In this document: positions 22,510 to 59,940 of the stretch, piece by piece
How the letters are laid out: each line of letters starts with the position of its first letter
Numbering within the stretch: position 1 is the stretch's first letter
Source: Macrotis lagotis
Lineage: Eukaryota; Chordata; Mammalia; Peramelemorphia; Peramelidae
Length of the DNA stretch: 64,000 nt
Assembly (NCBI RefSeq): GCF_037893015.1
Contig: NC_133658.1
Coordinates: 428,201,890 to 428,265,889 of the forward strand
Direction of reading: 5' to 3'
Translations under genes and position numbers: made by a program
Notes under the pieces: generated by a model
The model's database searches: none
What the model saw: only the letters and a program-made list of their open reading frames with translations
Told to the model about the DNA's origin: nothing

Positions 22510-24086
22510 ATAGACAATGAAATAATATCAATATTAAACATGTATGCACCAAGTGGTACAACATCCAAATCCTCAATGGAAAAGTTAAGTGAGTTATAGG
22601 AGGAAATAGATGGTAAAACTGAACAAGTGGGAGACTCAACTTTTCTCTTTCAGAACTAGACAAGTCAAAACACAAAATAAACAAGAAAGAAATTAAGGAG
22701 ATAAATAGAATTTTAGAAGAGTTAGATTTGATAGATCCCTGGAGAAAAATAAATGAGGATAGAAAAGAATTTTTCTCAGTGCCACATGGTACCTACAGAA
22801 AAAGTAACCATATCTAGGGCATAGAAACCACACATTCAAATGCAGAAAGGCAGAAATAGTATATACATCCTGTTTAGATCATAATGCAACAAAAATTACA
22901 TTAAATAAAAAGCAATGGAAAATAGATTAAAATTAATTGGAAACTAAACAATCTAATCCCAAAGAAGAGTGGTTCAAAAAAATTCATGGAAACAATAATT
23001 TCATTAAAGAGAATGACAATGAGATAATTTACCAAAATTTATGGAATGCAAACAAATAATTAGGGGAAATTTATATCTCTAAATAATTACATCAACAAAA
23101 AAGAGAAAGAGCATATTAATAAATGGACATGAAACTACAAAAACTAGAAAAACAAAAAATTAAAAATTCCCAATTAAATACCAAATTGGAAGTCCTGAAA
23201 ACCAAAAGTGAGATTAATAAAGTTGAAGGTAAGAAAACTACTGAACAAATGAATAAAATGAGAGTCTGGTTTTATGAGGAAAAAAATAACATATATAAAC
23301 CATTGATTGATTTTTTTTAAAAGAAAGAAGGGCGGAGCCAAGGTGGCAACAAGAGAAGATCATCTTTTAGGTGTTCTCTCTCTCTGATATTTCCAAACTT
23401 ATAAAATAAGGACTCTAACTGAAGTTTCGAGAGACTGAAGGTTCAAGAGACAGAACCCACAGAAGGAATCCAGTGAGGCAGTTCTCCAACCCAAGGTAAT
23501 CTGGAAAAGAGCAGAAAGGCTCGGCTCCATGGGGTTGGAGGGGCGGCTGCCAGAGTGAAGGAACTTCAGCTTCCAGGAGGCAGCCCCAGGGCACTGGGAG
23601 CCATGGCTTGTGGCAGCGGGGACAGTTTCTTGACCTACACCCCCCCCAGGGAGAACCAAGCACAACTTGGGGGATTAGTAGGGGGGAGACATCTGCCAGA
23701 GCAAGCGTATGAAGCCAGATCTCAGGGCATTCAGCAAGCAGTCTGGCTGGGCAGCCTAGATCCAGGAACCAGAAGCAGGCAGAGCCAGTAAGCAGGAGCC
23801 CCCAGGTGGGAGTGCTGAGTCTAGGTAGGGGAGTGGAAAGATACTTCCAAGGTCTATTCTCTGTCCCTGGAACAGGACTCTGGGGCTCTGACCACATTCA
23901 GATCCTGATCGAAGTCTAGGCCCCCCATAGAATAGCAGGGCCCCCCCACTTCAGCCCTGTGGCAGAGGGGGGCATTTATAGTCATTCACAGACCAGGAGG
24001 GAGGACAGAGCCTCACACACTAAGATCCTTGTGGGGGTGTCCCAAAAGCTCAGGAAGCGCCCCAAAACAAGGCACAATCTGGGGAA

Positions 24087-25186
24087 ATGAGTAAACAGAG
24101 AAAAAAGAGGAACGCCATTGAGAAATAACTTTGCCTGTGACCCCAAGAAGGATCAAAACACTCAATCTGAAGATGAGGAAGTCCAGGCTCCTGCATCTGA
24201 AGACTCCAAGAAAAACAGAAATTGGGCTCAGGCTATGAGAGTGCTCAAAAAAGACTTTGAAAATCAAGTGAGGGAGACAGAAGAAAAATTGGGAAAAGAA
24301 CTGAGAGAGATGGAGGAAAAACATGAAAAAGAAGTAAGCAGCTTAGTCAAGGAGATCCAAAAAAATGCTTGAAGAAAATAACATGTTAAAAACCAGCATA
24401 GGTCAAATGGATAAAACAGTTCAAAAAGTTAGTAAGAAGAAGAATGCTTTAAAAAGCATTGGCCAGATGGAAAAAGAAATAAGAAAGCTCTCTGAGGAAA
24501 ACAAATCCTTCAGATGCAGAATGGAACTGAGGGAGGCTGCTGATTTTACGAGAAATCAAGACACAATACTTCAAAACCAAAAGAATGAAAAAAATTAGAA
24601 GAAAATGTGAAACATCTCATTGAAAAAACAACTGATTCAGGCCAGATAATTTAAAAATCATTGGGATACCTGAAAAACCATGGTCAGGAAAAGAGCCTTG
24701 ACATCATTTTCAAAGAATTACTAGAGGAAAATTGCCTAGATATCCTAGAAGCAGAGGGCAACATAGAAATCCAGGGAATCCACTGATCTCGCCAAGAAAG
24801 AGAACCAAAAAAAAAAAAACAACCCCCAGGAATATGATAGCCAAGTTCCAGAACTCCCAAGTCAAAGAGAATATATTATAAGCAGCCAGAAGGACACAAT
24901 TCAAATATCATGGAGCTGCAGTCAGGATCACACAGCAACTACATTAAAGGCTCGTAGGGCTTGGAATATAATATTCCAGAAAGCAAAAGAGCTCAGAATG
25001 CAACCACGAATCAACTACCCAGCAAAATTGAACATCCTCTTCCCGGGGAAAAAGATGGACTTTCAATGAACCAGTGGAATTCCAAATGTTCCTGTTGGAA
25101 TGGCCAGAGCTGAACAGAAAGTTTGATCTTCAAATACAGGACTCAGGTGAAGCATAGAGAGTGGAGGAGAAGGGGAAAATATGAGG
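24087..25186 (+). pseudogene. L1 ORF1p-like coding remnant, HAL1 copy A
   Basis: ORF1p is the RNA-binding, trimeric chaperone of L1 particles. The ATG at 24087 gives MSKQRKKRN, matching copy B. An indel right after the EK dipeptide breaks the frame. Beyond it one reads QNTQSEDEE, a coiled coil with VRETEEKLGKELREMEEKH-type heptads and IGQMEKEIRKLSEENKSF. The RRM (KIIGIPE-like) and C-terminal domain (PRINYPAKLN-like, then a WTFNEP-like stretch) lie at 24640-25160. Several frameshifts and stops make it non-coding today. Length before decay, about 360 codons, fits L1 ORF1p. Confidence 0.85.
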
Positions 25187-25674
25187 GACTTAATGATGAT
25201 GATGAACTAAATGTATTCCTGTATAGAAAAATGACACTAATAATACTCATATGAACCTTCTCATTTAATAGAGCAGGCAGAAGGAGATTTTATAGATGAA
25301 GCACAGGAGAAAGCTGAATTTGAAGATATAATAATATATTGTAAAAATGGAGTCAATGGCTAAAAGGGAAATGTAATAGGAGAAAGAAAAAGGAGAGGTA
25401 GAAAAAGCTAAGATATTTCATATAATAAGATTTTTTATTACAATGAGCTTTTGCAATGATATGGAAGGGGGGAAGGCAAGGGGGAATGAGGGAAACTTTG
25501 CTCTCATCAGAGGTGGCTAGGAGAGGAAACAGCATACATACTCAATGAGGTATAGACATCTAGAGTAAGAAGGAGAGAAGGGGGACAGGGGGAAGGGGGT
25601 AAATGTGAATGATGGAAGAGAGGATGGACCATAGGGGGAGAGTGGTCAGATATAACACGTTTTCTTTTTTACCT

Positions 25675-25813
25675 CTTGCAAGGGACTGGGATTGGATGGC
25701 CTGTCTGGGACTATAGGGCCAGGTGGATGCTGGGTCTAAGGGGTGGTATGTGGACTCAGGGTCTCTTGGCCCCAGGTCCAGGGATTTGTCTGCTGCGCCA
25801 CTCAGCTTCCCTA
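25675..25813 (-). mobile_element. 3'-UTR SINE 1 of HAL1 copy A, antisense
   Basis: CTCTTGCAAGGGACTGGG through GTCTGCTGCGCCACTCAGC on the plus strand is a diverged antisense SINE. The same SINE at the same position occurs in copies B (29645-29793), C (34228-34373) and D (58420-58563). Element E has no SINE at the matching site (about 46543). Confidence 0.8.
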
Positions 25814-26046
25814 CAGCACATTTAAGAAGAGAGACAGAGTGAAAGGAGAGAGAAAATATAGTATATGGTAGTGGGGAAGTACAAATGGAGGAAATTGCGA
25901 TTAGCAATGGCAATGGTGGAAAAATATGGAAGTAGCTTTTGATAGACAGCATAAAGGATATGATCCACCTGTGACAGAGCTGGAGGTGTTAGAACATAGA
26001 CTGAACCACTATAATAATAATAATAATAATTATTATTATTATTATT

Positions 26047-26193
26047 TGGGGGGGGTTGCAGGGCAAATGGGGCTGGGTGGCTTGCCTGGGGCCATACAGT
26101 TGGGTGATTGTTGGGTGTCTGAGGCCAGATTTAGCCGAGTGCTCCTGGCTCCAGTGCCGGTGCTCTGTCTGCTGCACCACCTGGCCGCCCCTG
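26047..26193 (-). mobile_element. 3'-UTR SINE 2 of HAL1 copy A, antisense, A-to-G-shifted
   Basis: Compared with ordinary antisense SINEs in this window, GGTTAAGTGG reads GGCTGGGTGG, GGTAATTATTAAGTG reads GGTGATTGTTGGGTG, TGACTCC reads TGGCTCC and CACCTAGC reads CACCTGGC. By eye about 17 A-to-G differences stand against about 2 T-to-C on the element strand. Confidence 0.8.
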
Positions 26194-26213
26194 TTATTAT
26201 CATCACCATCATT

Positions 26214-26260
<47 letters not shown>

Positions 26261-26274
26261 TATTTTATTTTAGG

Positions 26275-26432
26275 TCTTTTTTTTTTTTTTGGTTTTTGCA
26301 GGGCAATGTGGTTGGGGTGGCTTGCCCAGGGTCACACAGCTGGGTAATTGTTGGGTGTCTGGAGCTGGATTTAGGCTTGGGTGCTCCTGGCTCCAGGGCC
26401 AGTACTCCGTCACTGCGCCACCTGGCTGCACT
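26275..26432 (-). mobile_element. 3'-UTR SINE 3 of HAL1 copy A, antisense, A-to-G-shifted
   Basis: Preceded by an ATC-triplet run. Reads GCAGGGCAATG, GGTTGGGGTGGC, CAGCTGGGTAATTGTTGGG and TGGCTCCAGGG. Where ordinary antisense SINEs have AA or A, this copy mostly has G. Positional match to SINE 3 of copies B, C and D. Confidence 0.8.
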
Positions 26433-28309
26433 TATTATTGCTATTATTATTATTATTTATTAAATTTAATTTTTTTCTCTTTCTTTTACTTTATCACTCA
26501 TGCAAGTCTATATTTTTTGGGGGGGAGATGGTATTATGTTTACTCTTAAACAAGAATATTTTAGTAATAGTAATGTATAAAACAAGATCATTTGTACAAA
26601 AATAAGAATAAATAAATTTAAAAAAGAAGGACCTGAAGCAGAGAGAAAATTAAAAAAAAAGAAAAAAGAAAGAAAAGCAAATTGTCAGTACTGCCAGAAT
26701 TCATTACCAAGGAAGAGAAAATTAGACTGGATGAATATTTACAAACAGATAAATTGTTTAAATTAACAGAAGAGGAACAAAGTATTTAAATAACCCCATC
26801 TTAGAAAATTAAATTGAACAAGCCATCAGTGAACACCCTAAAAATCATCAGGGTCAAATCATCAAGGGTTCACAAATGAATTCTACCAAACATTTAAAGA
26901 ACAATATGTTCCATTACCATAAAAATATTTGGGCAAAGAGTCCTATGACGCAATTATGTTGCTGATACCTGTGAACCAGGAAGGGCTAAAACAGAGAAAA
27001 CTGGGAGACCAGGAGTGGGAGAATTTTGAACTAATCATTTAAATAATGAGGGGAAAAGAAAGGAAGAAATAAAAAACTAACCTAAGTGAAACCTCAAAAC
27101 TAGGGAAAGGATTGACAAACAGGAGCACAAGGTATTTAACAACCAAAAAATTAAAAGAAGAGAAAAAAAAATTAAACATGAGAAAATTATACTTCAATTT
27201 GCACTTAGGAGTTCAACAGTTCTCCCTCTGGAGGTAGATAGCATATTTTCATCATAATTCTTTGGAACTGTTTTGAATTATTGCAATGATCAGAGTAGTA
27301 AAATCTTATACTACTTATCATCATTAAAACATTGCTATTACTCTGCACACTCTCCCAGTTCTTCTAGCTTCATTTTGCATGAGTTCATATGGCTCTTGCC
27401 AATTATTTTCTGCATTCGCCTCTTATAATACAATAGTAAGTAATCCATTGCAACTATGTGTCACAATTTCTTCAGTCATTCCCCAATTGATGAGGAACCC
27501 CCCCCAAAAGCCTAATTCTTTGCTATCATAAAAAGAGATGCTATAAGTATTTTTGTACATATAGGTCTTTTTTCTTTTTCTTTGATCTCTTTGGGCTACA
27601 TACCCAGTATTGATACTGCTGAATCAAAGTGTATGTAATTTTATTAACTCCACATTATTCTCCAGAATGGTTGGACCAGTTCACTATTCTACCAACAATT
27701 CTTTAGTGTACCTGTTTTCTCCTCATTCCCTCCAAAATTAGTCATTTCTGATAAACACGAAATGATACCTTAGGATTGAATTAATTTTCCTTTCTCTAAT
27801 CAATAGTTATTTAGAGCATTTTTATATGACTATAGATAGTTTCAATTTTCTCATCCAAAGACTTCCTATTTATATCCTTTGACCATTTATCATTTGGGGG
27901 AATGGCTCTAATTTTTATAAATTTGACTCAGTTCTATACTCAGTATATTTGAGAAATAAGTCCTTGATCAGAGAAACTTACTGAAAAATTTTTTGGTATT
28001 ACTTCATTATCTACTGTATCCTTTGTCAAAATGTGGTTTCCTTTAATAAGGTCTATTTTTACTTTTACTAATGTCTGAGGTCATGATTACTACCCCGCTT
28101 TTTATATTTCAGCTGAAGCATATTAGATTTTTCTTTAACCCTTAACTTTAACTCTTTCTCTGCATGTCTTTCTGCTTCAAGTGTGTCTCTTGTAAATATC
28201 ATTTTGTTGGATTCTACTCTCTAACCCATTCTGCTCTCTGCTTCTGTTTTATGCATAAGCTCATTCCACTGACATTCAGTTATTACTGTGTATTTCTCTC
28301 CATTCCTAT

Positions 28310-28567: not shown

Positions 28568-29111
28568 TATCTTCTCTTTTTGAACCAATTCCAAAGACAG
28601 TGAGGTTCAAGTTTTGTCTGTTACTACCATCTCAATTTTCTCTTCCATTTTAAAAGTTTCTCTTTGCATATCCCTTTTTTCTCCATTCCTCCTTTTTCCA
28701 GTACTTCTCTCTTTCTCAACCCTTCATTATTTTTGGAGATCATTCTAATATAATCAACTCAGAGTCATGTTCTCTGTCTATGTAAACTCTAAACTGTCCA
28801 AATAATAAATTTCTTTGCCATTACTTGCATAATCTTCCCACATAGGAAAGTTAAGCAGTTCAATTTTATTGAGTCCCTTAGGATTAGTCTTTCATGTTTA
28901 TCTTTTTATGTTTCTCTTGAGTCTTTTTTTTAATTTATTTTTTTATTCTCATTTTGTAAAAATGTTTTTTTACATTAATAAAATATTCTTGTTTACAAGT
29001 AAACAAAATACCCCTCCTCCCCCATGAATATAGATAATAGACTTGCTTGGGCGAAAAAAGTAAAGGGGAGAGAAAAAAATTAAAATTAAAAAAAAATAAT
29101 AGTAATAATTG

Positions 29112-29793
29112 TAGGTATGGCCAGGTGGCACAACGGACGAAGCACCAGCCCTGGAGCCACAAGCACCTGAGCCCATATCCAGCCTCGTAAACCCAACAAT
29201 CACCCAGCCATGTGACAATGCAAGCCACCCGATCCCCACTGCCCTGCAAAAACCAAAAAAAAAAAAAAAGACCCAAAATAAAATAAAATAGTAATAATAA
29301 TAGGGGTGGCTGGGTGGCAGACAGAGCATTGGCCCTTGAGCCAAGAGTACCTGGGTCCAAATCCGGCCCCAGACACCCATAGATCACCCTGCTATGTGGC
29401 CCCAAGCAGGCCACCCAGCCCCACTTGCCCTGCACCCTCCCCTAAATAATAACAAAAAATGTGCTTGAGTCTTTGTTCCAACACCAACAACTCTGTCATG
29501 GGTGGATCACATTCTTTATGGTAAGTCCATCGCAAAAGTTGCTTCCATATTTTTCGACCGTTGCCATTGCTGATCGCAACTCCCTCCTTTCTTATTTCTC
29601 CACTACCATGTACTATATTTTCTCTCTCCTTTCACTCCGACTCTGCTGTAGGGTCGTTGACTGGCTCAGCAGACAGATCCTTGGTCCTGGGGCCAAGAAG
29701 CCCTGAGCCCCTATATCACCCCTTAGGCCCAGAATCCACCTGGCCTCATGGTCCTGGGCAGGCCTTCCAATCCCAGCCCCTTGCAAGAAGTAA
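29112..29793 (+). mobile_element. Three 3'-UTR SINEs of HAL1 copy B
   Basis: SINE 3 (29112-29272), SINE 2 (29300-29450) and SINE 1 (29645-29793) read in SINE-sense on the plus strand, antisense to the element. Compared with ordinary window copies, SINE 3 has AGCCAC for AGTCAG, GAGCCCA for GAGTTCA, AATCACCCAGCC for AATTACCTAGCT and ACTGCCCTGC for ATTGCCTTGC. The differences are nearly all T-to-C on the SINE strand. Confidence 0.85.
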
Positions 29794-30273
29794 GAAAGAA
29801 AATGTGTTATATCTGACCACTCTCCCCCCACGGTCCATCCTCTCCTCCTTTATTCACATCCCCACCCCTTCCCCCTGCTCCCCCCTCCTTCTTACTCCAG
29901 ATGTCTATACCCCATTGAGTATATATGCTGTTTCCTCTCCTAGCTATCTCTGATGAGAGCAAAGGTTCCCTCATTCCCCCTTGCCTCCCCCCCTTCCATA
30001 TCATTGCAATAGCTCATTGTAATAAAAAAAAAATCTTATGTGAAATATCTTGGACTATTCCCCCCCTCTCCTTTTTCTTTCTCCCATTACATTTCCCTTT
30101 TTTTCTATTGACTCCATGTTTACACCATATTTTATCTTCGGATTCAGCTTTCTCCTGTGCTTCAACTATAAAAGCTCTCTCTACCTGCTCTATTAACTGA
30201 GAAGGTTCATATGAGTATTATCAGTGTCATTTTTCTATGCAGGAATACATGCAGTTCATCGTCATTAAGTCTC

Positions 30274-31390
30274 TCATATTTTCCCCTCTCCTCCAATCTC
30301 CATGCTTCACCTGAATCCTATATCTGAAGATCAAACCTTCTGTTCAGTTCTGGCCATTCCAAAAGGAACCTTTGAAATTCCCCTGGTTCATTGAAAGTCC
30401 ATCTTTTTCCCTGGAAGAGGACATTCAGCCTTGCTGGGTAGTTCATTCTTGGCTGCATTCTAAGCTGTTTTGCCTTCCGGTACATTGTATTCCAAGCCCT
30501 ACAAGCTTCCAATGTATTTGCTGCTAAGTCCTGTGTGATCCTGACTGCAGCTCCACGGTATTTGAATTGTGTCCTTCTGGCTGCTTGTAATATTTTCTCT
30601 TTGACTTGGGAGTTCTGGAACTTGGCTATAATATTCCTAGGGGTTGGTTTTTTTGGGATCTCTTTCTTGGGGGGATCAGTGGATTCTCTCCATTTCTATT
30701 TTGCCCTCTGCTTCTAGAATATCAGGGCAATTTTCCTGTAGTAATTCTTTGAAAATGATGTCAAGGCTCTTTTCCTGGTCATGACTTTCAGGTATTCCAA
30801 TAATTTTTAACTTATCTTTCCTAAGTCTGTTTTCCATATCAGTTGTTTTTTCAATGAAATATTTCACATTTTCTTCTAATTTTTCATTTTTTTTTTTTGT
30901 TTTGAAGTATTGATTCCTGATTTCTGGTAAATTCATCAATCTCCCTGAATTCTGTTCTTTGTCTGAAGGATTTGTTCTCCTCAGAGAGTTTTCTTATCTC
31001 TTTTTCCATCTGGCCAATTTTGCTTTTTAAAGCATTCTTCTCCTCCATAACTTTTTGAATTGTTTTATCCATTTGACCTAAGCTGGTTTTTAGCATGGTA
31101 TTTTCTTCAGCATTTTTTTGGATTTCCTTGACTAAGCTGCTGACTTCATTTTCATGTTTTTCCTGCATCTCTCTCCTTTCTTTTCCCAGTTTTTCTTCCA
31201 ACTCCCTCATTTGATTTTCAAAGCCTTTTTTGAGCTCTGTCATTGCCTGAGCCCAATTTCTGTTTTTCTTGGAGTCTTTAGATGCAGGAGCTTATTCTTC
31301 CTCATCTTCAGACTGAGTATTTTGGTCCTTCTTGGGCTCATTTGTAAAATATTTCTCAATAGTCTTCTTTTTGTTTCTCTGCTTGCTCAT
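30274..31390 (-). pseudogene. L1 ORF1p-like coding remnant, HAL1 copy B
   Basis: Starts MSKQRNKKKTIEKYF, then PKKDQNTQSEDEE. The coiled coil reads MRELEEKLGKERREMQEKH and IGQMEKEIRKLSEENKSF. The RRM contains LKIIGIPESH, and the C-terminal domain has RMNYPARLNVLFQGKRWTF and FLLEWPELNRRFDL. Visible lesions are a stop just after SEDEEE, a shift in the A-run following LQNKKKK, further frame breaks mid-domain, and a stop replacing Gln in the terminal LQIQDS. It ends with an ERGKI-stop also seen in copies C and D. Domain order and about 370-codon length fit L1 ORF1p. Confidence 0.9.
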
Positions 31391-32291
31391 TTTCCGAGCC
31401 TGGGCCTGGTTTGGGGTGTTTCTTGAGCTTTTGGGACACTCCCACAAGGGTCTCAGTGTGTGAGGCTCTGTCCTCCCTCCTGGTCTGTGAATGACCATAA
31501 GCACCCCCCTCTGCCATGGGGCTGAGGTGGGGGGGGCCTGCTGTTCTATTGGGGGGCGCCTAGACTGCTATCAGGATCTGAATGTGGTCAGAGCCCCAGA
31601 GTCCTGTTCCAGGGGCAGAGGACAGAGCTTGCAGTTTCTCTTCACTCCCCTCCCTCAGCTCAATGGGCTCATGCCCTGGGGGCTCCTGCTTCCCGGCTCC
31701 GCCTGCTTCTGTTTCCAGGTCTGGGCTGCAGAAAGAACAAGCTGCTGGCTATGTGCCCTGAGGGCTGAGCTCCATGTTCTCTCTCTGGCAGAGGTCCCCC
31801 ACTGTTCCCCCACTTTGTGCCTGATGCTCCTCGGGGTGCAGCTCTGGAGACTCCCTCGCTGCTGTGAGCGAGGCTCCCAGCGCCCTGGGGCTGCCTCTGG
31901 GAGGCTGAAGTTCTTTGGCTCTGGCGGGCCACCCCTCTGGCAGGCCGCCTCTCTGATCCCGGGGAGCAGAGCCTTTCTGCTCTTTTCCAAGTTACCTTGA
32001 GTAGGAGAACTGCTTCACTGGGTCCCTTTGTGGGTTCTGTCTCTCGAAAGTTTAGTTAGAGTCCTTAGCTGATGAGTTTTATCAGAGAGCTCCTAAGACT
32101 CAATCCCTTCTTGTGGTCATCTTGGCTCCGCCCCCCTGTTTCGCTTTTTCTGACCCTCTTGAGTCTTTTGCTTGTGAGATTTTCTATTCCACATTTGCCT
32201 TTTCATCAGTTATGCTTGAAAGTTCTCTATTTCATTAAATACTCATTTTTCCCAGTAAAGAATTATATTCATTTTCTGGGAGGTGATTCTT

Positions 32292-32449
32292 TTTTTTTTT
32301 TTTTGAGGTTTTTGCTAGGCAATGGGGTTAAGTGGCATGCCGAAGACCACACAGCTAAGTAATTATTAAATGTCTGAGACCGGATTTGAACCCAGGTACT
32401 CCTGACTCCAGGGCCGGTGCTTTATCCACTGTGCCACCTAGCCGCCCCT
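32292..32449 (-). mobile_element. WSINE1-like SINE with 13-bp TSD
   Basis: Antisense SINE flanked by GGAGGTGATTCTT at 32279-32291 and 32450-32462. It lies in the old antisense L1 ORF1 and shows the ordinary, non-A-to-G-shifted sequence (GGGGTTAAGTGG, TAATTATTAAATGTCTGAG). Confidence 0.95.
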
Positions 32450-32669
32450 GGAGGTGATTCTTGATTGGAATCCTGGTTCTTTTCCCATCTGAAACAGCTC
32501 ATTCCAAGCCTTCCATAATCTGGAAGCTGCTATATCTTGTATGATCCTGTCTCAATGATATTTAAATTGTTTCTTTTTGGATTCTTGAAGTATTTTCTTT
32601 TTTTATCTGGCAGTTCTGGAATTTGGCTATAATATTCCTGGGAGTTTTCATTTGAGGATATCTTTCTTT

Positions 32670-32825: not shown

Positions 32826-33250
32826 GGACCTCTTTCAGGAGGTGATTGATGGACTCCTTCAATTTATATTTTACCTCTGAGTCTAAGATATTAGGACAGT
32901 TTTCTCTGATAATTTCTTGAAACATGATGTTTAGGTTCTTTTTAATGATCATTGCTTTCAAGCAGTCCAATAATTCTTTAATTCACTCTCCTAATCTGTT
33001 TTCCAGGTCAGTTATTTTTCCAATGACATATTTCACATTTTCTACTTTTTCCCCATTTGTTTAATTTGTTTTAATGTTTCTTGATATCTCATGGAATCAT
33101 TAGCTTCCACTTGCCCAATTTTAATTTTTAAGGAATTATTTTCTTCAGTGAGATTTTGTACATCTTTTTTTCCATAAGATCAATTCTACTTTTTAAGAAG
33201 CTATTCTTTTCAGAGAATGTGTCTCTTACTGTTTGACCAATTCTATTTTT

Positions 33251-33404
33251 TCGTTCATTATTTTTTAGATTTTTGCAAGGCAATGGGATTAAGTAGCTTG
33301 CCCAAGTCCACACAGCTAGGTAATTATTAAGTGTCTGAAGCCGTATTTGAACTCAGGTACTCCTGACTCCAAGGCTGGTGCTCTATCCACCTCCTAGCTG
33401 TGCC
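33251..33404 (-). mobile_element. WSINE1-like SINE with 17-bp TSD
   Basis: Antisense SINE bounded by TGACCAATTCTATTTTT at 33234-33250 and 33405-33421. It lacks a few bases of the tRNA-like head (TCCACCTCCTAGCTGTGCC). Confidence 0.95.
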
Positions 33405-33513
33405 TGACCAATTCTATTTTTAAGGCATTATTTTCTTCAGTATTTTTAGGGTCTCTTTTACTAAGCTGTTCATTCTTTTGTCATAATTATCTTATATCAT
33501 TCTCATTTCTTTT

Positions 33514-36500
33514 TTAATTTAATATTTATTCTCATTTTGTACAAATAATTTTATATACATTAATAAAATATTCTTGTTTAAGAGTAAATGAAATACCCCC
33601 TCCCCCCATAAATATAAACTCACTTGAGTGATAAAGCAAAGGGGAGAGAAAAAAATTAAAATAAAAAAAATAATAGTAATAATTGTAGGTATGGCCAGGT
33701 GGTGCAATGGAGAGAGCACCAGCCCTGGAGTCATGAACACCCGAGCCCACATCTGGCCCCGTACACCCAACAGTCACCCAGCCATGTGACATGCAAGCCA
33801 CCCGAATCCCACTGTCCTGCAAAAACCAATAAAAAGAATAAAAAAGACCTAAAATAAAATAAAATATTAATAATAATAGTAGGGGTGGCTGGGTGGCGGA
33901 CAGAGCATTGGCCCTTGAGCCAGGAGCACCTGGGTCCAAATCTGGCCTCAGACACCCAATGATCACCCTGCTATGCGGCCCCAGGCAGGCCACCCAGACC
34001 CATTTGCCCTGCACCCCCCCCAAATAATAATAATAAAAATGTGCTTGGGTCTTTGTTCCAACACCAACAACTCTGTCATGGGTGGATCACATTCTTTATG
34101 GTAAGTCTATCACAAAAGTTACTTCCATATTTTTCCACCGTTGCCATTGCTGATCGCAACTCCCTCCTTTCATATTTCTCTAATACCATGTACTATATTT
34201 TCTCTCTCCTTTCACTCTGACTCTGCTGTAGGGTAGCTGAGTGGTGCAGCAGACAGATCCCCGGCTCTGGGGCCAAGAGGTGCTGAGCCCCCATACCACC
34301 CCTTAGGCCCAGCATCTAGCTGGCCCTATGGTCCCGGACAGGCCTTCCAATCCCAGCCCCTTGCAAGAAGTAAAAAAGAAAATGTGTTTTATCTGACCAC
34401 TCTCCCCCCATGGTCCACCCTCTCCTCCATCACTCACATCACCCCCCTTCCCCCTGTCCCCCCCTTCTTACTCCAGATGCCTATACCCCATTGAGTATAT
34501 ATGCTGTTTCCTCTCCTAACCACCTCTGATGAGAGCGAAGTTTCCCTCATTCCCCCTTGCCTTCCCCCCTTCCATATCATTGCAATAGCTCATTGTAATA
34601 AAGAAAAATCTTATTATATGAAATATCTTGGCCTATTTCCCCCTCTCCTTTTTCATTCTCTCATTACATTTCCCTTTTTTCTATTGACTCCATTTTTACA
34701 CCATATTTTATCTTCAAATTCAGCTTTCTCCTGTGCTTCAACTATAAAAGCTCCCTCTATCTGCTCTATTAACTGAGAAGGTACATACGAGTATTATCAG
34801 TGTCATTTTTCTATGCAGGAATACATGCAGTTCATCATCAAGTCCCTCATATTTTCCCCCTCTCTTCCAATCTCCATGCTTCACCGGAGTCCTGTATTTG
34901 AAGATCAAACCTTCTGTTCAGCTCTGGCCATTCAAAAAGGAACCTTTGAAATTCCCCTGGTTCACTGAAAGTCCATCTTTTTCCCTGGAAGAGGACATTC
35001 AGCCTTGCTGGGTAGTTAATTCTTGGAAGCATTCTAAGCTCTTTTGCCTTCCAGTATATTATATTCTAAGCCCTATGAGCTTCCAAGGTAGTTGCTGCTA
35101 AGTCCTATGTAATCCTGACTGAAGCTCCACGATATTTGAACTGTGTCCTTCTGGCTGCTTGCAATATTTTCTCTTTGACTTGGGAGTTCTGGAATTTGGC
35201 TATAATATTCCTAGGGGTTGGTTTTTTGGGATCTCTTTCTCGGGGGGATCAGTGGATTCTCTCCATTTCTATTTTGCCCTCTGCTTCTAGAATATCAAGG
35301 CAATTTTCCTGTAGTAATTCTTCGAAAATGATGTCAAGGCTCTTTTCCTAATCATGACTTTCAGGTATTCCAATAATTTTTAAATTATCTTTCCTAAGTC
35401 TGTTTTCCATATCAGTTGTTTTTTCAATGAGATGTTTCACATTTTCTTCTAATTTTTCATTTTTTTTTGTTTTGAAGTATTGATTCCTGATTTCTGGTAA
35501 ATTCCTCAATCTCCCTGAATTCTATTCTTTGTCTGAAGGATTTGTTCTCCTCAGAGAGTTTTCTTATCTCTTTTTCCATCTGGCCAATTTTGCTTTTTAA
35601 AGCTTTCTTCTCAATTACTTTTTGAACTGTTTTATCCATTTGACCTAAGCTGGTTTTTAGCATGCTATTTTTCTTCAGCATTTTTTTGGATTTCCTTGAC
35701 TAGGCTGCTGACTTTCCTGCATCTCTCTCATTTCTTTTCCCAGTTTTTCTTCTAACTCCCTCATTTGACTTTCAAAGTATTTTTTTTTGAGCTCTGTCAT
35801 AGCCTGAGCCCAATTTCTGTTTTTCTTGAAGTCTTTAGATGTAGGAGCTTGTGCTTCCTCATCTTCAGACTGAGTATTTTGATCCTTCTTGGGTTCATAT
35901 GCAAAATATTTCTCAATGGTGTTCCTCTTGTTTGTGTGCTTGTTTATTTTCCCAGCCTGAGCCTGTTTTGGGGTACTTCCTGATCTTTTGGGACACTCCC
36001 CCAAGGGTCTCAGTGTGTGAGGCTCTGTCCTCCCTCTTGGTCTATGAATGACCATAAATGCCCCCCTCTGCCATGGGGCTGAGGTGGAGGGGGCCCCCCT
36101 GCTGTTTCTCTGGGGGGACCTAGATTGCAATCAGGATCTGAATGTGGTCAGAACCCCAGAGTCTTGTTCCAAGGGCAGAGCTCTGCAGTCTCTCTCTCTT
36201 CACTCCCCTCCCTAGGTTCAATGGGCTCATGCCCTGGGGGCTCCTGCTTATGGGCTCTGCCTGCTTCTGTTTCCTGGAACTCAGCTGAGCTGGCCTTGCT
36301 GCTTTCTGTGTGCCCTGAGGGCTGGGCTTCACATGCTCACTCTGGCAGAGGCCCCCCCCCCCCAATTTGTGCCCGGTGCTCCCCAGGGGCGTAAGTCAGG
36401 AAACTCCCCTGCCGCTGTGAGCCCCGGCTCTCAGCGCCCTGGGGCTGCCTCTGGGAAGCTGAAGTTCTTTCGCCCTGGCGGGCCACCCCTCTGGCAGGCT

Positions 36501-36683
36501 GCCCCTCCAACCCTGGGGAGCAGAGCCTTTCCACTCTTTTCCAGGTTACCTTGAGTAGGAGAACTGCCTCACTGGGTCCCTCTGCGGGTTCTGTCTCTCA
36601 AAAATTTAGAGTCTTTAGATGATAAGTTTTATTAAGAGTGCCTACGACAGGATCCCTTCTTGTAGCCATCTTGGCTCCACCAG
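33514..36683 (-). mobile_element. HAL1-like ORF1-only retrotransposon, copy C
   Basis: Bounded by a perfect 17-bp duplication TCATTCTCATTTCTTTT (33497-33513 and 36684-36700). Minus-strand order is a 5' UTR starting GGTGGAGCCAAGATGG (36683-35948), ORF1 remnant (35947-34847), and a 3' UTR with SINE 1 (34228-34373), SINE 2 (33885-34023), SINE 3 (33690-33832) and an A-rich end. It is a direct repeat of copy B with 1.36 kb between them, and both lie in the same old antisense L1. Confidence 0.95.
34847..35947 (-). pseudogene. L1 ORF1p-like coding remnant, HAL1 copy C
   Basis: The initiator is ATA instead of ATG (INKHTNKRNTIEKYF). There follow PKKDQNTQSEDEEAQAP, a coiled coil shortened where REMQEKHENEV is partly deleted, IGQMEKEIRKLSEENKSF, the RRM, and the C-terminal NYPARLNVLFQGKRWTF, FLFEWPELNRRFDL and EAWRLEERGKI-stop. 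Several frameshifts. Not translatable as a whole. Confidence 0.9.
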
Positions 36684-44944: not shown

Positions 44945-46055
44945 ATGGGCAAACAACAGAAGAAAATAAATCCTACCATAGACAATTACTTTGGTCTTAT
45001 AGAAGATCAAAATACACACTCTGAAGAAGATAACAAAGTCAAAGCTTTTGCATCCAAAGCATTTTATGTGAAATAACTTTCCTCATTCTACCGTCTCCTT
45101 TCACTTTCTCCCAGTACATTCTTTTCTCCCCCATTAACTCCATTTAAAATATATATTATTCCTTCAAATTCAACACTCTACTGTGCCTTGTCTCTATATA
45201 TGCTCCTTCTAACTGCTCTAATAAATGAAAATCAAGTAAGGGAGGGGGGGAGAGAGAGGAAAAATTAGGAAGAGAAATGAGGGAGATGCAGGAAAATCAT
45301 GAAAACCAAGTCAGCAGCTTGGTGAAGGAGATACAAAAAATACCGAAGAAAATAACATCTTAAAAAAGTTTGGGTCAAATGGAAAAAGCAGTTCAAAAGG
45401 TTAGGGAGGAGAAGAATGCCTTAAAAAGTAGAACGGGCCAGATGGAAAAGGAGATACCAGCTGTCTGAAGAAAATAATTATTTAAAATGTAGATGGAGCT
45501 AAGGGAAGTCAAGAAATAAACTAATAAAACCAAAAGAATGAAAAACTAGAAGAAAATGTGAAATAGCTCATTGAAAAACAACTGATGTGGAAAATAGATC
45601 CAGAAGAGATAATTTTAAAATTATTGGAGTTCCTGAAAGTCATAACCAAAAAAAAAAAGCCTAAATGTCATTTTTTTCAAGAAATTCTCCAGGAAGCCTG
45701 CCCTGATATCCTAGAAGTAGAGGGTAAAATAGAAATTGAAAGAGATCCCAAAATGAAAACTGCCAGGCATATTATAGCAAAATTACAGAACTCCCCAGTC
45801 AAGGAAAAATATTATAGTCAGAAAGAATAAGACTTAGCAGCTTCTACATTAAAGACTCATAGAGTTTGGAATATGATATTATAGATGGCAAAAGAGCTTG
45901 GATTACAACCAAGAATCAACTGCCTGGAAAAGATGAACATCTTTCAGAAAAGATGGACTTTCAATGAAACAGGGGCCTTTCAAACTTTCCTGAAGAAATA
46001 ATCAGAGCTGAACAGAAAGTTTGATATTCTGGTACAGGACTCAAGTGAAGCATAG
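44945..46055 (+). pseudogene. L1 ORF1p-like coding remnant, element E
   Basis: ATG at 44945 gives MGKQQKKINPTIDNYFG, then EDQNTHSEEDNKVKAF, after which the 45062-45228 inversion replaces the expected linker. The coiled coil resumes with ENQV, then EMRE- and MQENHENQ-type heptads. The RRM region includes ILKLLEFLKV-type decay of KIIGVPE. The PCPDILEVEGKIEIE-like block, the KLQNSPVKEK block and the terminal RWTFNE- and LNRKFD-like pieces lie at 45690-46040. Multiple frameshifts. Confidence 0.8.
45062..45228 (-). repeat. Inverted copy of the element's own 3' UTR
   Basis: Its reverse complement matches 46150-46310 over about 165 bp, roughly 90% by eye: TCATTTATTAGAGCAGTTAG at one end, GTTATTTCACATAAAA at the other. 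It sits in place of an ORF1 segment and has no element terminus or poly(A), so it is not a separate retrotransposition. Confidence 0.9.
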
Positions 46056-46149
46056 AGAAGGTGGAGGGACAGGCTAATTATGTGGAATTTAATGATGTTG
46101 AATTGCTTGTATTCCTGCATAAGAAGATACCGATAACTCATGAACCTTC

Positions 46150-46310
46150 TCATTTATTAGAGCAGTTAGAAGGAGCATATATAGACAAGGCAGGGGAGAG
46201 TATTGAATTTGAAGGAATAAAATATTTTTAAATGGAGTTAATGGAGGAACAAAGAATATACTGAGAAAGTGAAAGGAGAGGTAGAATGGGGAAAGTTATT
46301 TCACATAAAA
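46150..46310 (+). repeat. 3'-UTR partner of the inverted copy
   Basis: Normal-orientation partner of 45062-45228. It corresponds to the post-ORF1 region of copies A-D, for example AACCTTCTCATTTAATAGAG in copy A near 25255. The two arms are separated by about 920 bp and could pair as a hairpin. Confidence 0.9.
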
Positions 46311-46885
46311 GCAAGAAAAAATTTTTTACAGTGGAAGAGGGAAGATGAGGAGTGAGTGAGCCTTATTCTCATTGGAAGTGGCTCAGAGAGGGAATAACAT
46401 ACACACTCAATTAGATATAGACATCTATCTTACTTTAGGAGAAAATTGGAGAAAAATTGGGAGAAAGGGGATGAGTGAAGGGGATGGTGGGGAGATGATT
46501 AAAAAAAGGCAGGATTGTGGGAGAGGGTAGTCAGATGCAACACACTTTTCAGGAGGGACAGGGTGAAAGTAGAGAGAGAATAGAATGGGAGTGGGAGGAA
46601 TAGGATGGAGGGAAATACAACTAGCAATTGCAACTGTGGGAAAAAAAATATTGACCCAAGTTCTTGCTATGCACCCCAAAGACAGAGTTGATGGTGTCTG
46701 AATACAGCCTAATGCATACTTTTTTCCCCCCTCATTTTATTTTTCTTGAGGTTTCTCTTTCTTTGTATATGGGGAGGATGGAGGGATTATGTTTACTTTT
46801 ACACGACTATTGTAATATTTTTCAAGGTTACACATTTTTAACCTACACCAAGTCACTTGTTTTCTGTTTCCCCTTCCCCAGGGGA

Positions 46886-57435: not shown

Positions 57436-57714
57436 TTGCAGATATATAGTACATAAAATATCCAAATGAGAGTATCATGTCATAGGTCAGACATAAAAGA
57501 TCATATACAGAAGTATAACAACATCACTTTTCATGGCTGAATAGAGGAGACCATACATACATCAAATGTCAGAAGAGCACTGAAATATATACAAAGAACA
57601 TTTTAAAAAGAGTTCACTAGTGGTCACTTCCTAATGACATGTAATTTATTAATCCATTCTTACATTTCATATTTTAATCTGGCTACTAGCTAAATCCCCA
57701 GCACTTCTTTTTTT

Positions 57715-59610
57715 GTTCTTTTTTTTTATTCTCATTTTGTACAAATGTTTTTTTTACATTAATAAAATATTCTTGTTTAACAGTAAACAAAATACCCCTC
57801 CCCCCATGAATATAGACTTGCTTGGGCGATAAAGTAAAGGGGAGAGAAAAAAATTAAAATTAAAAAAAATAATAGTAATAATTGTAGGTATGGCCAGGTG
57901 GCGCAATAGATGAAGCACCAGCCCTGGAGCCACGAACACCCGAGCCCACATCCAGCCCCATAGACCCAACAATCACCCAGCCGTGTGATATGCAAGCCAT
58001 CTGATCCCCACTGCCCTGCAAAAACCAAAAAGAAGGGGGGAAAAAAAGACCCAAAATAAAATAGTAATCATAGTATGGGTGGCTGGGTGACAGAGCATTG
58101 ACCCCTGAGCCAGGAGCACCCGGGTCCAAATCCAGCCTCAGACACTCAAAGATCACCCTGCTATGTGGCTCCAGGCAGGCCACCCAGTCCCATTTGCCCT
58201 GCACCCTCCCCCAAATAATAATAGTAAAAAATGTGCTTCAGTCTTTGTTCCAACACCAACAACTCTGTCATGGGTGGATCGCATTCTTTATGGTAAGTCC
58301 ATCGCAAAAGTTGCTTCCATATTTTTCCAATGCTGCCATTGCTGATCACAACTCCCTCCTTTCTTATTTCTCCACTACCATGTACTATATTTTCTCTCTC
58401 CTTTCACTGACTCTGCTGTAGGGTTGCTGAGTGGTGCAGCAGACAGATCCCTGGTCCTGGGGCCAAGAAGCCCTGAGCCCCCTACCACCCCTTAGGCCCA
58501 GAATCCATCTGGCCCTATGGTCCCGGACAGGCCTTCCAATCCCAGCCCCTTGCAAGAAGTAAAAAAGAAAATGACCACTCTCCCCCCATGGTCCATCCTC
58601 TCCTCCTTTATTCACATGCCCCCCTTCCCCCTGCTCCCCCCTCCTTCTTACTCCAGATGCCTATACCCCATTGAGTATATATGCTGTTTCCTCTCCTAGT
58701 CACCTCTGATGAGAGCAAAGGTTCCCTCATTCCCCCTTGCCTCCCCCCCTTCCATATCATTGCAATAGCTCATTGTAATAAAAAAAATCTTATTATATGA
58801 AATATCTTGGCCTATTCTCCCTCTTTTTCTTTCTCCCATTACATTTCCCTTTTTTTCTATTGACTCCATTTTTACACCATATTTTATCTTCGAATTCAGC
58901 TTTCTCCTGTGCTTCAACTATAAAAGCTCCCTCTACCTGCTCTATTAACTGAGAAGGTTCATATGAGTTTTATCAGTGTCATTTTTCTATGCAGGAATAC
59001 ATGCAGTTCATCATCATTAAGTCCCTCATATTTTCCCCCCTCTCCTCCAATCTCCATGCTTCACCGGAGTCCTGTATCTGAAGATCAAACCTTCTGTTCA
59101 GCTCTGGCCATTCCAAAAGGAACCTTTGAAATTCCCCTGGTTCATTGAAAGTCCATCTTTTTCCCCTGGAAGAGGACATTCAGCCTTGCTGGGTAGTTCA
59201 TTCTTGGCTGCATTCTAAGCTCTTTTGCCTTCTGGTATATTGTATTCCAAGCCCTACAAGCTTCCAATGTAGTTGCTTCTAAGTCTTGTGTGATCCTGAC
59301 TGCAGCTCCATTATATTTGAACTGTGTCCTTCTGGCTGCTTGTAATATTTTCTCTTTGACTTGGGAGTTCTGGAACTTGGCTATAATATTCCTAGGGGTT
59401 GGTTTTTTGGGATCTCTTTCTTGGGGGGATCGGTGGATTCTCTCCATTTCTATTTTGCCCTCTGCTTCTAGAATATCAGGGCAATTTTTCTGTAGTAATT
59501 CTTTGAAAATGATGTCAAGGCTTTTTTCCTGATCATGACCTTCAGGTATTCCAATAATTTTTAAATTATCTTTCCTAAGTCTGTTTTCCATATCAGTTGT
59601 TTTTTCAATG
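57715..59610 (-). mobile_element. HAL1-like element, copy D, 5'-truncated
   Basis: Minus-strand order: ORF1 from the RRM onward (59610-59026), then a 3' UTR with SINE 1 (58420-58563), SINE 2 (58073-58215) and SINE 3 (57888-58032), ending in a T-run (plus strand) near 57715. The ORF1 part reads IEKTTDMENRLRKDNLKIIG, IPEGHDQEKSLDIIF, PTPRNIIAKFQNSQVKEKIL, RMQPRMNYPARLNVLF. An inserted C shifts the frame at QGK, after which WTFNEPGEFQRFLLEW follows. This is the best-preserved C-terminal half of the family. At 59610 it is joined to unrelated sequence (59611-59940). No target duplication was found. Confidence 0.9.
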
Positions 59611-59940
59611 CCACATTTCTCATTTGGATCATAATTTAGATGCTCCAGATATGGATCACTGGCTAACACCAATTGTTCATCAGGACCAGGGAGGGTCCTG
59701 CTTGGAGCCTGCCTTCACCGACTCTTTGTTGCTCCTATCCCCCTTATTGCCAGGGAGTCCAACCAACTTTCCTCTAGGCATTAGATTGCTGTGATACATC
59801 AAGTTTTCAGGATTCCAATCAGTGTCTGGGGCTATATTTTGTAGATTTCTTAGCCTTTCAAAAACTTCATATTGTTTAACTCTCCACCTGCCAGTTTTCA
59901 TCTGTTGTATTAAACACCCAAGATTTAGGAGCAAAACTGG
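59611..59940 (-). other. Unassigned protein-like segment fused to HAL1 copy D
   Basis: A minus-strand frame at 59934-59680 reads MKTGRWRVKQYEVFERLRNL, then DTDWNPENLMYHSNLMPRG and LPGNKGDRSNKESVKAG, ending in a stop. Beyond the stop, a frame continues into the HAL1 ORF1 remnant. I do not recognise the family. The abrupt junction with ORF1 sequence could be a template-switch chimera or a later rearrangement. Confidence 0.35.

Follow-up and report, generated by a model that had tools for sequence, protein, structure and literature searches.

An A-to-G footprint, probably left by RNA editing, in three antisense SINEs of a spreading HAL1-like family

Results

HAL1-like elements and their captured SINEs

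Four copies of a HAL1-like element were located in the window, the 64-kb stretch of DNA analysed here, and the family was followed in the genome (3.66 Gb in 607 contigs searched). Copy A (23330..26629, + strand) consists of a 5' UTR, ORF1 and a 3' UTR with three antisense SINEs; it was delimited by alignments to copies B-D and contains a Pfam Tnp_22_dsRBD match in 24767-25069. Copy B (28926..32133, - strand) has the 5' end common to A and C, and its ORF1 domains Transposase_22 and Tnp_22_dsRBD lie at 30318-30695. Copy C (33507..36682, - strand) was identified by its alignment to the other copies, and copy D (57702..59625, - strand) aligns only from inside ORF1 to the 3' end. Copies B, C and D form one subclade apart from copy A in the tree and have a small deletion near the end of SINE2 (3' part) in common. 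A further HAL1 relative (45226..46840, + strand), likewise found by alignment, is without any of the three SINEs in its 3' UTR.

Copies A, B and C measure ~3.2 kb each and have both ends in common; the common 5' end is presumably L1 5' UTR-like. Pieces of ORF1 match Transposase_22 and Tnp_22_dsRBD, the L1 ORF1 RNA-binding and C-terminal families, above the cut-off, and the ORF1 reading frames of the window copies are interrupted by stops. No match to a reverse transcriptase was obtained in the 12 ORFs scanned for domains. As A, B and C have the same two ends at ~3.2 kb, there is no room for an ORF2. The anatomy of the window element is that of HAL1, with L1 ORF1 encoded and ORF2 lacking, and this anatomy suggests that the family was mobilised by L1. 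HAL1 (half-L1) is an ORF1-only element according to the part of PMC5753468 that describes it. The window family resembles HAL1 as described there in having ORF1 only, L1 ORF1 domains and an A-rich 3' end, but it differs in its 3' UTR, which bears three WSINE1b-like SINEs in antisense orientation.

Each of the copies A-D carries these three antisense SINEs in its 3' UTR. In copy A (+ strand), they are SINE1 (25665..25815), which is A-to-G-rich on the oldest background, SINE2 (26051..26195), with 17 A>G among 29 As, and SINE3 (26286..26434), with 17 A>G among 30 As. On the - strand, SINE3, SINE2 and SINE1 are found at 29119..29259, 29299..29440 and 29644..29802 in copy B, at 33693..33832, 33882..34019 and 34224..34382 in copy C, and at 57892..58031, 58078..58209 and 58414..58571 in copy D. 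We take them to be WSINE1b-like from the resemblance of the body, including a stretch taken as the 7-nt insert; WSINE1b has the WSINE1 body with a 7-nt insert near position 80 and is without the 11-nt insert. Their length and insert region are compatible with WSINE1b.

SINE2 and SINE3 are flanked in most copies read (26194-26285; loci L079-L086) by (TTA)n/(TCA)n/(CTA)n-like microsatellites of variable length; the two SINEs appear either to have inserted into an expanding simple repeat or to have given rise to it. Where a T-run would be expected before SINE2 (26046-26056, likewise in B-D), there is a G-run, e.g. TTTGGGGGGG, and SINE3 retains its T-run; the T to G in this run is not accounted for by A-to-G editing.

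A-to-G bias in the window

Compared with the consensus of the ordinary SINEs of the window, SINE2 of copy A has 17 A>G, 3 T>C, 3 G>A and 4 C>T changes and 1 transversion. This agrees closely with the original prediction, made from the sequence of the window, which had counted about 17 A>G against about 2 T>C and 4 C>T. SINE3 of copy A has 17 A>G, 1 T>C, 4 G>A, 4 C>T and 6 transversions on the same comparison. All 12 family SINEs of the window (SINE1-3 of copies A-D) carry 14-18 A>G versus 1-6 T>C each on the sense strand of the element, and the like bias claimed for SINE3 of copies A and B was thereby borne out. A bias of SINEs 2 and 3 had been claimed and was present in both, but it is not limited to these, as SINE1 is also biased, on an older background.

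The 15 ordinary SINEs of the window, each compared with the consensus of the other 14 and with 4 MIR/MAR-like SINEs left out of the set, have 15 A>G and 23 T>C in total. Two of them that lie near the family copies (32287..32455 and 33248..33412, both + strand) served as controls and show 1 A>G each, in agreement with the claim that neighbouring ordinary SINEs keep their As.

The bias in the genome-wide family

Genome searches gave 86 loci which, together with 4 window slices, represent 66 distinct family copies. The family consensuses were derived from 52 (SINE1), 53 (SINE2) and 63 (SINE3) distinct copies, and 56 distinct ordinary SINEs were used as reference. Counted without duplicates, 62 ordinary entries correspond to 56 distinct ones, 59 SINE3 copies to 57 and 54 SINE2 segments to 53; the statistics on neighbours, flanks, rates and divergence used sets still holding a few duplicates. 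Removal of the duplicates lowered the strict A>G of SINE2 from 17 to 16 and had no other notable effect. A site was called strict when the derived base occurred in <=15% of the ordinary SINEs and in >=60% of the family.

The SINE2 consensus differs from the reference by 17 A>G, 3 T>C, 1 C>T and 1 G>A (strict: 16 A>G, 1 T>C, 1 C>T, 0 G>A) and that of SINE3 by 16 A>G, 1 T>C, 2 C>T, 1 G>A and 1 C>A (strict: 16 A>G, 1 T>C, 1 C>A). Thus, A>G makes up 16/18 strict changes in SINE2 (17/19 with duplicates kept) and 16/18 in SINE3. Among ordinary SINE changes its share is 9.2%, and the binomial P for 16/18 is about 4e-15. At consensus level, 17/29 As of SINE2 and 16/29 As of SINE3 were turned into G. 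The SINE1 consensus has 18 A>G, 6 T>C, 8 C>T, 5 G>A and 14 transversions; its 45 strict changes are 17 A>G, 6 T>C, 6 C>T, 3 G>A and 13 transversions. Balanced A>G and T>C counts, which the original prediction had named as an outcome speaking against it, did not occur, with 33 A>G versus 4 T>C for SINE2 and SINE3 together on the HAL1 sense strand.

Counts per copy were made on copies of >=110 nt after removal of entries with an identical central 60-mer. SINE1 (n=44) had A>G at 612/1255 As versus T>C at 210/1289 Ts, SINE2 (n=41) 640/1198 versus 128/1212 and SINE3 (n=57) 945/1706 versus 61/1708. Ordinary SINEs (n=45; 47 with duplicates) had 50/1315 and 53/1319, with <=3 A>G per copy. Two entries, L074:1904 and L032:1304 (13 and 16 A>G), had been dropped from 49 first classed as ordinary because they sit at the place expected for the family SINE2.

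G is the derived base at the edited sites, since ordinary SINEs carry G at <=4% at every one of them and the older MIR/MAR-like SINEs of the window have A at most of them. The second outcome named beforehand as contrary was a SINE subfamily outside HAL1 that already bears these Gs. None was found at the scored places inspected, which were 40/40 for the SINE3 query and 12/40 for the SINE2 query. The HAL1 3' end is present at 86/86 fetched loci and in the 4 window slices, and it follows the SINE in the layouts of L001-L058 and L079-L086. A separate G-bearing subfamily was rejected on the basis of these 86 loci and of the 45 distinct ordinary SINEs, which came from the same loci and the window slices.

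Timing and age of the changes

The A-to-G changes arose as a burst and not by drift. A core 25-mer that covers five edited As has 176,887 unedited occurrences in the genome and 1,674 in which all five are G, and all 32 A/G combinations sum to 190,758. Under independent change, far below one copy of the five-edit core is expected. The one three-edit form tried was found 6 times, and ~9 (9.5) are expected from decay of the five-edit class. SINE2 and SINE3 each have two strict changes other than A>G in 135 nt.

The mirror core, with five T>C in the same word, has 4 occurrences (C1:354969410, C3:242250513, C4:276018574 and C9:95575568 of G000), and almost none is expected from independent change. 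In these four, the sense strand of the SINE itself could have been edited.

The edits were fixed before the family amplified. Most A>G sites are common to copies A-D, and G is present in >=80% of the family copies at most edited sites, in line with the earlier proposal that shared changes predate amplification. Within the family, the rates of A>G per A and T>C per T are 0.042/0.037 in SINE2, 0.020/0.021 in SINE1, 0.043/0.024 in SINE3, 0.022/0.046 in the spacer between SINE1 and SINE2, 0.041/0.026 before SINE1 and 0.021/0.030 after SINE3. As the edited sites are mostly common and the changes within the family are without strong bias, the bias belongs to the stem before the radiation. Family copies diverge by 8-11% from their own consensus and ordinary SINEs by 9%, which makes the family about as old as the ordinary SINE copies.

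Neither a copy with an unedited SINE at a family position nor one predating SINE3 was found among the 66 distinct copies. Two copies, L013 and L080, have SINE2 and no SINE3. They were rejected as pre-SINE3 copies: L080 nests beside the SINE3-bearing L083 (support 0.84), and L013 keeps an apparent remnant of the SINE3 tail. The absence of SINE3 in both is probably due to secondary deletion in the simple repeats around it.

Neighbour preference

In SINE2 and SINE3 together, the As changed were 15/16 after T, 9/14 after A, 5/8 after G and 4/20 after C. As after T were changed more often than the rest (18/42; P=4e-4) and As after C less often (rest 29/38; P=6e-5). With regard to the 3' neighbour, 15/20 were changed before G (P=0.055), 9/14 before A, 6/14 before C and 3/10 before T. 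SINE1 alone showed no preference (5/8 after T, 5/10 after C), perhaps owing to its age.

The preference of ADAR1 is given as U>A>C>G on the 5' side and G>C~A>U on the 3' side in the pertinent part of PMC11019741. For mammalian hyper-editing, the section of PMC5625713 on sequence context reports a depleted upstream G and a preferred downstream G, with sparse data for opossum. The pattern in SINE2 and SINE3 fits ADAR1 in part: the order T, A, C on the 5' side agrees with it and the 3' side tends towards G, whereas 5'-G is a misfit. ADARs strongly avoid a 5'-G. The depletion of 5'-G that had been predicted is absent, although the 5/8 changed As derive from four positions; with SINE1 added, the count is 8/12.

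Proposed editing mechanism

Taken together, ADAR most probably hyper-edited the antisense SINEs in HAL1 RNA, and the edits would then have entered the DNA by reverse transcription ahead of the spread of the family. The interpretation of the original prediction as fossilised editing is supported; the enzyme would be ADAR, and pairing would have taken place in trans with sense SINE RNA.

In the proposed course of events, three WSINE1b-like SINEs would have inserted antisense into the 3' UTR of a HAL1-like lineage. The RNA of this lineage may then have formed a duplex of ~135 bp, either with sense SINE RNA, which is abundant, or with a sense SINE located on the same RNA molecule, and ADAR would have deaminated over half of the As on the HAL1 side of this duplex to inosine. 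The L1 machinery would read inosine as G, and one or a few hyper-edited RNAs could thus have become the parents of the spreading family. SINEs 1-3 would have been edited separately and not at one time.

The edited molecule must have been HAL1 RNA, in which the SINE is antisense, because editing of the sense transcript of the SINE itself would leave T>C changes on the HAL1 sense strand. The strand thereby excludes the RNA of the SINE as the edited molecule, and also cDNA in an RNA:DNA hybrid, the editing of which would give T>C as well. APOBEC would cause the wrong type of substitution. Sense SINE matches were present in 8/66 slices and were taken as later insertions or flank; none of the 66 slices had a sense SINE as part of the family 3' UTR. 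Therefore, the duplex was probably formed with SINE RNA supplied in trans or with a sense SINE next to the source locus.

For completed ADAR reactions on long dsRNA, the relevant part of PMC11019741 states a conversion of 40-50% of As, and for cDNAs of hyper-edited viral RNA about 50%. The conversion of SINE2 and SINE3 slightly exceeds the usual 40-50%.

Alternative explanations and comparison with the flanks

It is unlikely that one SINE was edited once and that the other two acquired the changes by duplication or by homogenisation through gene conversion. SINE2 and SINE3 have 14 of their 17 and 16 edited sites in common (hypergeometric P=7e-4), and the three SINEs lie in one orientation inside 800 bp. 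However, common preferred sites are expected as well if one enzyme acted twice, and no strict change other than A>G is common to the two (T15C and C29T in SINE2, T110C and C133A in SINE3). Moreover, SINE3 has its own T run (antisense A-tail), which SINE2 is without, and SINE1 has a different edited set plus many other changes.

A strand-asymmetric error of the retrotransposition cycle, in transcription or reverse transcription, that steadily made A into G is very improbable. The flanks were polarised against a single decayed outgroup, the SINE-less relative at 45226-46840. The spacer between SINE1 and SINE2 has 8 A>G, 5 T>C, 7 G>A and 7 C>T, and the 3' UTR tail after the SINEs 4, 5, 2 and 11, respectively. 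Pooled, they are balanced with A>G at 12/86 and T>C at 10/89. As turned into G were 33/58 in SINE2 and SINE3 versus 12/86 in these flanks (Fisher P=1.2e-7; one outgroup), and the flank figure should even be inflated because one decayed relative was used for the flanks and an ordinary-SINE consensus for the SINEs. ORF1 has 21 A>G and 19 T>C, unpolarised.

The polypurine stretch before SINE1 favours such an error, with A>G at 26/84 versus T>C at 8/49, although G>A is high as well (17/68) and the region aligns poorly with the outgroup. Its rates within the family (0.041/0.026) have the same tendency, and changes shared by B, C and D in this region are 5 A>G and 0 T>C. With the stretch included, the comparison is 33/58 versus 38/170 (P=2.5e-6). 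The predicted confinement of the A>G excess to the SINEs holds for the flanks beside SINE2 and SINE3 (12 versus 10) and is less clear-cut for the stretch before SINE1. Private changes of B, C and D over the whole element also favour A>G in raw counts (53 versus 30 T>C), but these correspond to ~2.3% per A and 2.0% per T once normalised by sites. In addition, there was little time for a steady change, since SINE2 and SINE3 have so few other strict changes (2 each).

The G content of the HAL1 3' UTR can hardly have been raised by selection favouring G-runs or G-quadruplexes. L1 3' UTRs are G-rich and many of the changes extend G runs (e.g. TAAG to TGGG), but the consensus changes of SINE2 and SINE3 comprise 0 transversions to G versus ~11 predicted by the ordinary spectra, and As without an adjoining G were still changed (8/16 and 6/16). 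It is barely conceivable that pairing with sense SINE RNA was under selection, so that none but wobble-preserving changes were tolerated. A>G shifts the predicted duplex only from -303.7 to about -298 kcal/mol, and equal numbers of random T>C to about -233 to -236, yet C>T, which preserves pairing as well and in ordinary SINEs outnumbers A>G by a factor of 3.3, amounts to 3 (1 strict) versus 33 A>G in SINE2 and SINE3. Self-limitation of editing through lost pairing is unsupported, as the edited sequence is still predicted to pair.

Discussion

The hyper-editing by ADAR that is proposed here resembles the biased hypermutation of viral and cellular dsRNA in its clustered A-to-G changes on one strand, in the conversion of about half of the As and apparently in a preference for 5'-U and 3'-G. 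It differs in that the changes are fixed in genomic DNA, affect three SINEs and are carried on by a family whose core has 1,674 exact matches, and in that 5'-G is not depleted. APOBEC editing of retroelement DNA, which leaves G-to-A clusters in the examples covered by the part of PMC2873906 concerned with it, is similar as a deaminase signature left in retroelement copies; here, however, the changes are A-to-G in SINE segments and would belong to the RNA stage, and the edited copy founded a family. As in the A-to-I editing of inverted Alu pairs in mRNA, treated in one part of PMC4982230, SINE duplexes would be the substrate, but the HAL1-like element has no inverted SINE, and its edits would have been reverse transcribed and propagated. 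The captured SINEs appear to share the body sequence of the CORE-SINE WSINE1b as far as it is presented in part of PMC3403934, and differ in that more than half of the As are now G on the antisense strand in the HAL1-like family.

ADAR hyper-editing, HAL1 and fossil APOBEC footprints in retroelements are known already. The literature searched, which scarcely covered subscription journals, yielded no description of a SINE with A-to-G edits that had become fixed in a spreading family of LINEs. As far as this literature shows, a spreading LINE family whose founding state was an ADAR-like footprint, present in three SINEs, is new.

The HAL1-like family offers an internal control for fossil editing in its flanks and external controls in the ordinary SINEs. 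SINE-less HAL1-like relatives, namely that at 45226-46840 and places in the genome (~40 scored, 5,413 candidates at first look), represent a natural outgroup.

The finding makes testable whether RNA editing feeds germline mutations through reverse transcription, and whether editing lets elements with antisense SINEs persist. A more tentative reading, and one that we consider rather doubtful, is that ADAR acted as a germline mutator of this LINE lineage three separate times, with each captured antisense SINE being hyper-edited in the RNA and the edited daughter spreading. If true, editing would have shaped which retrotransposon lineages survive.
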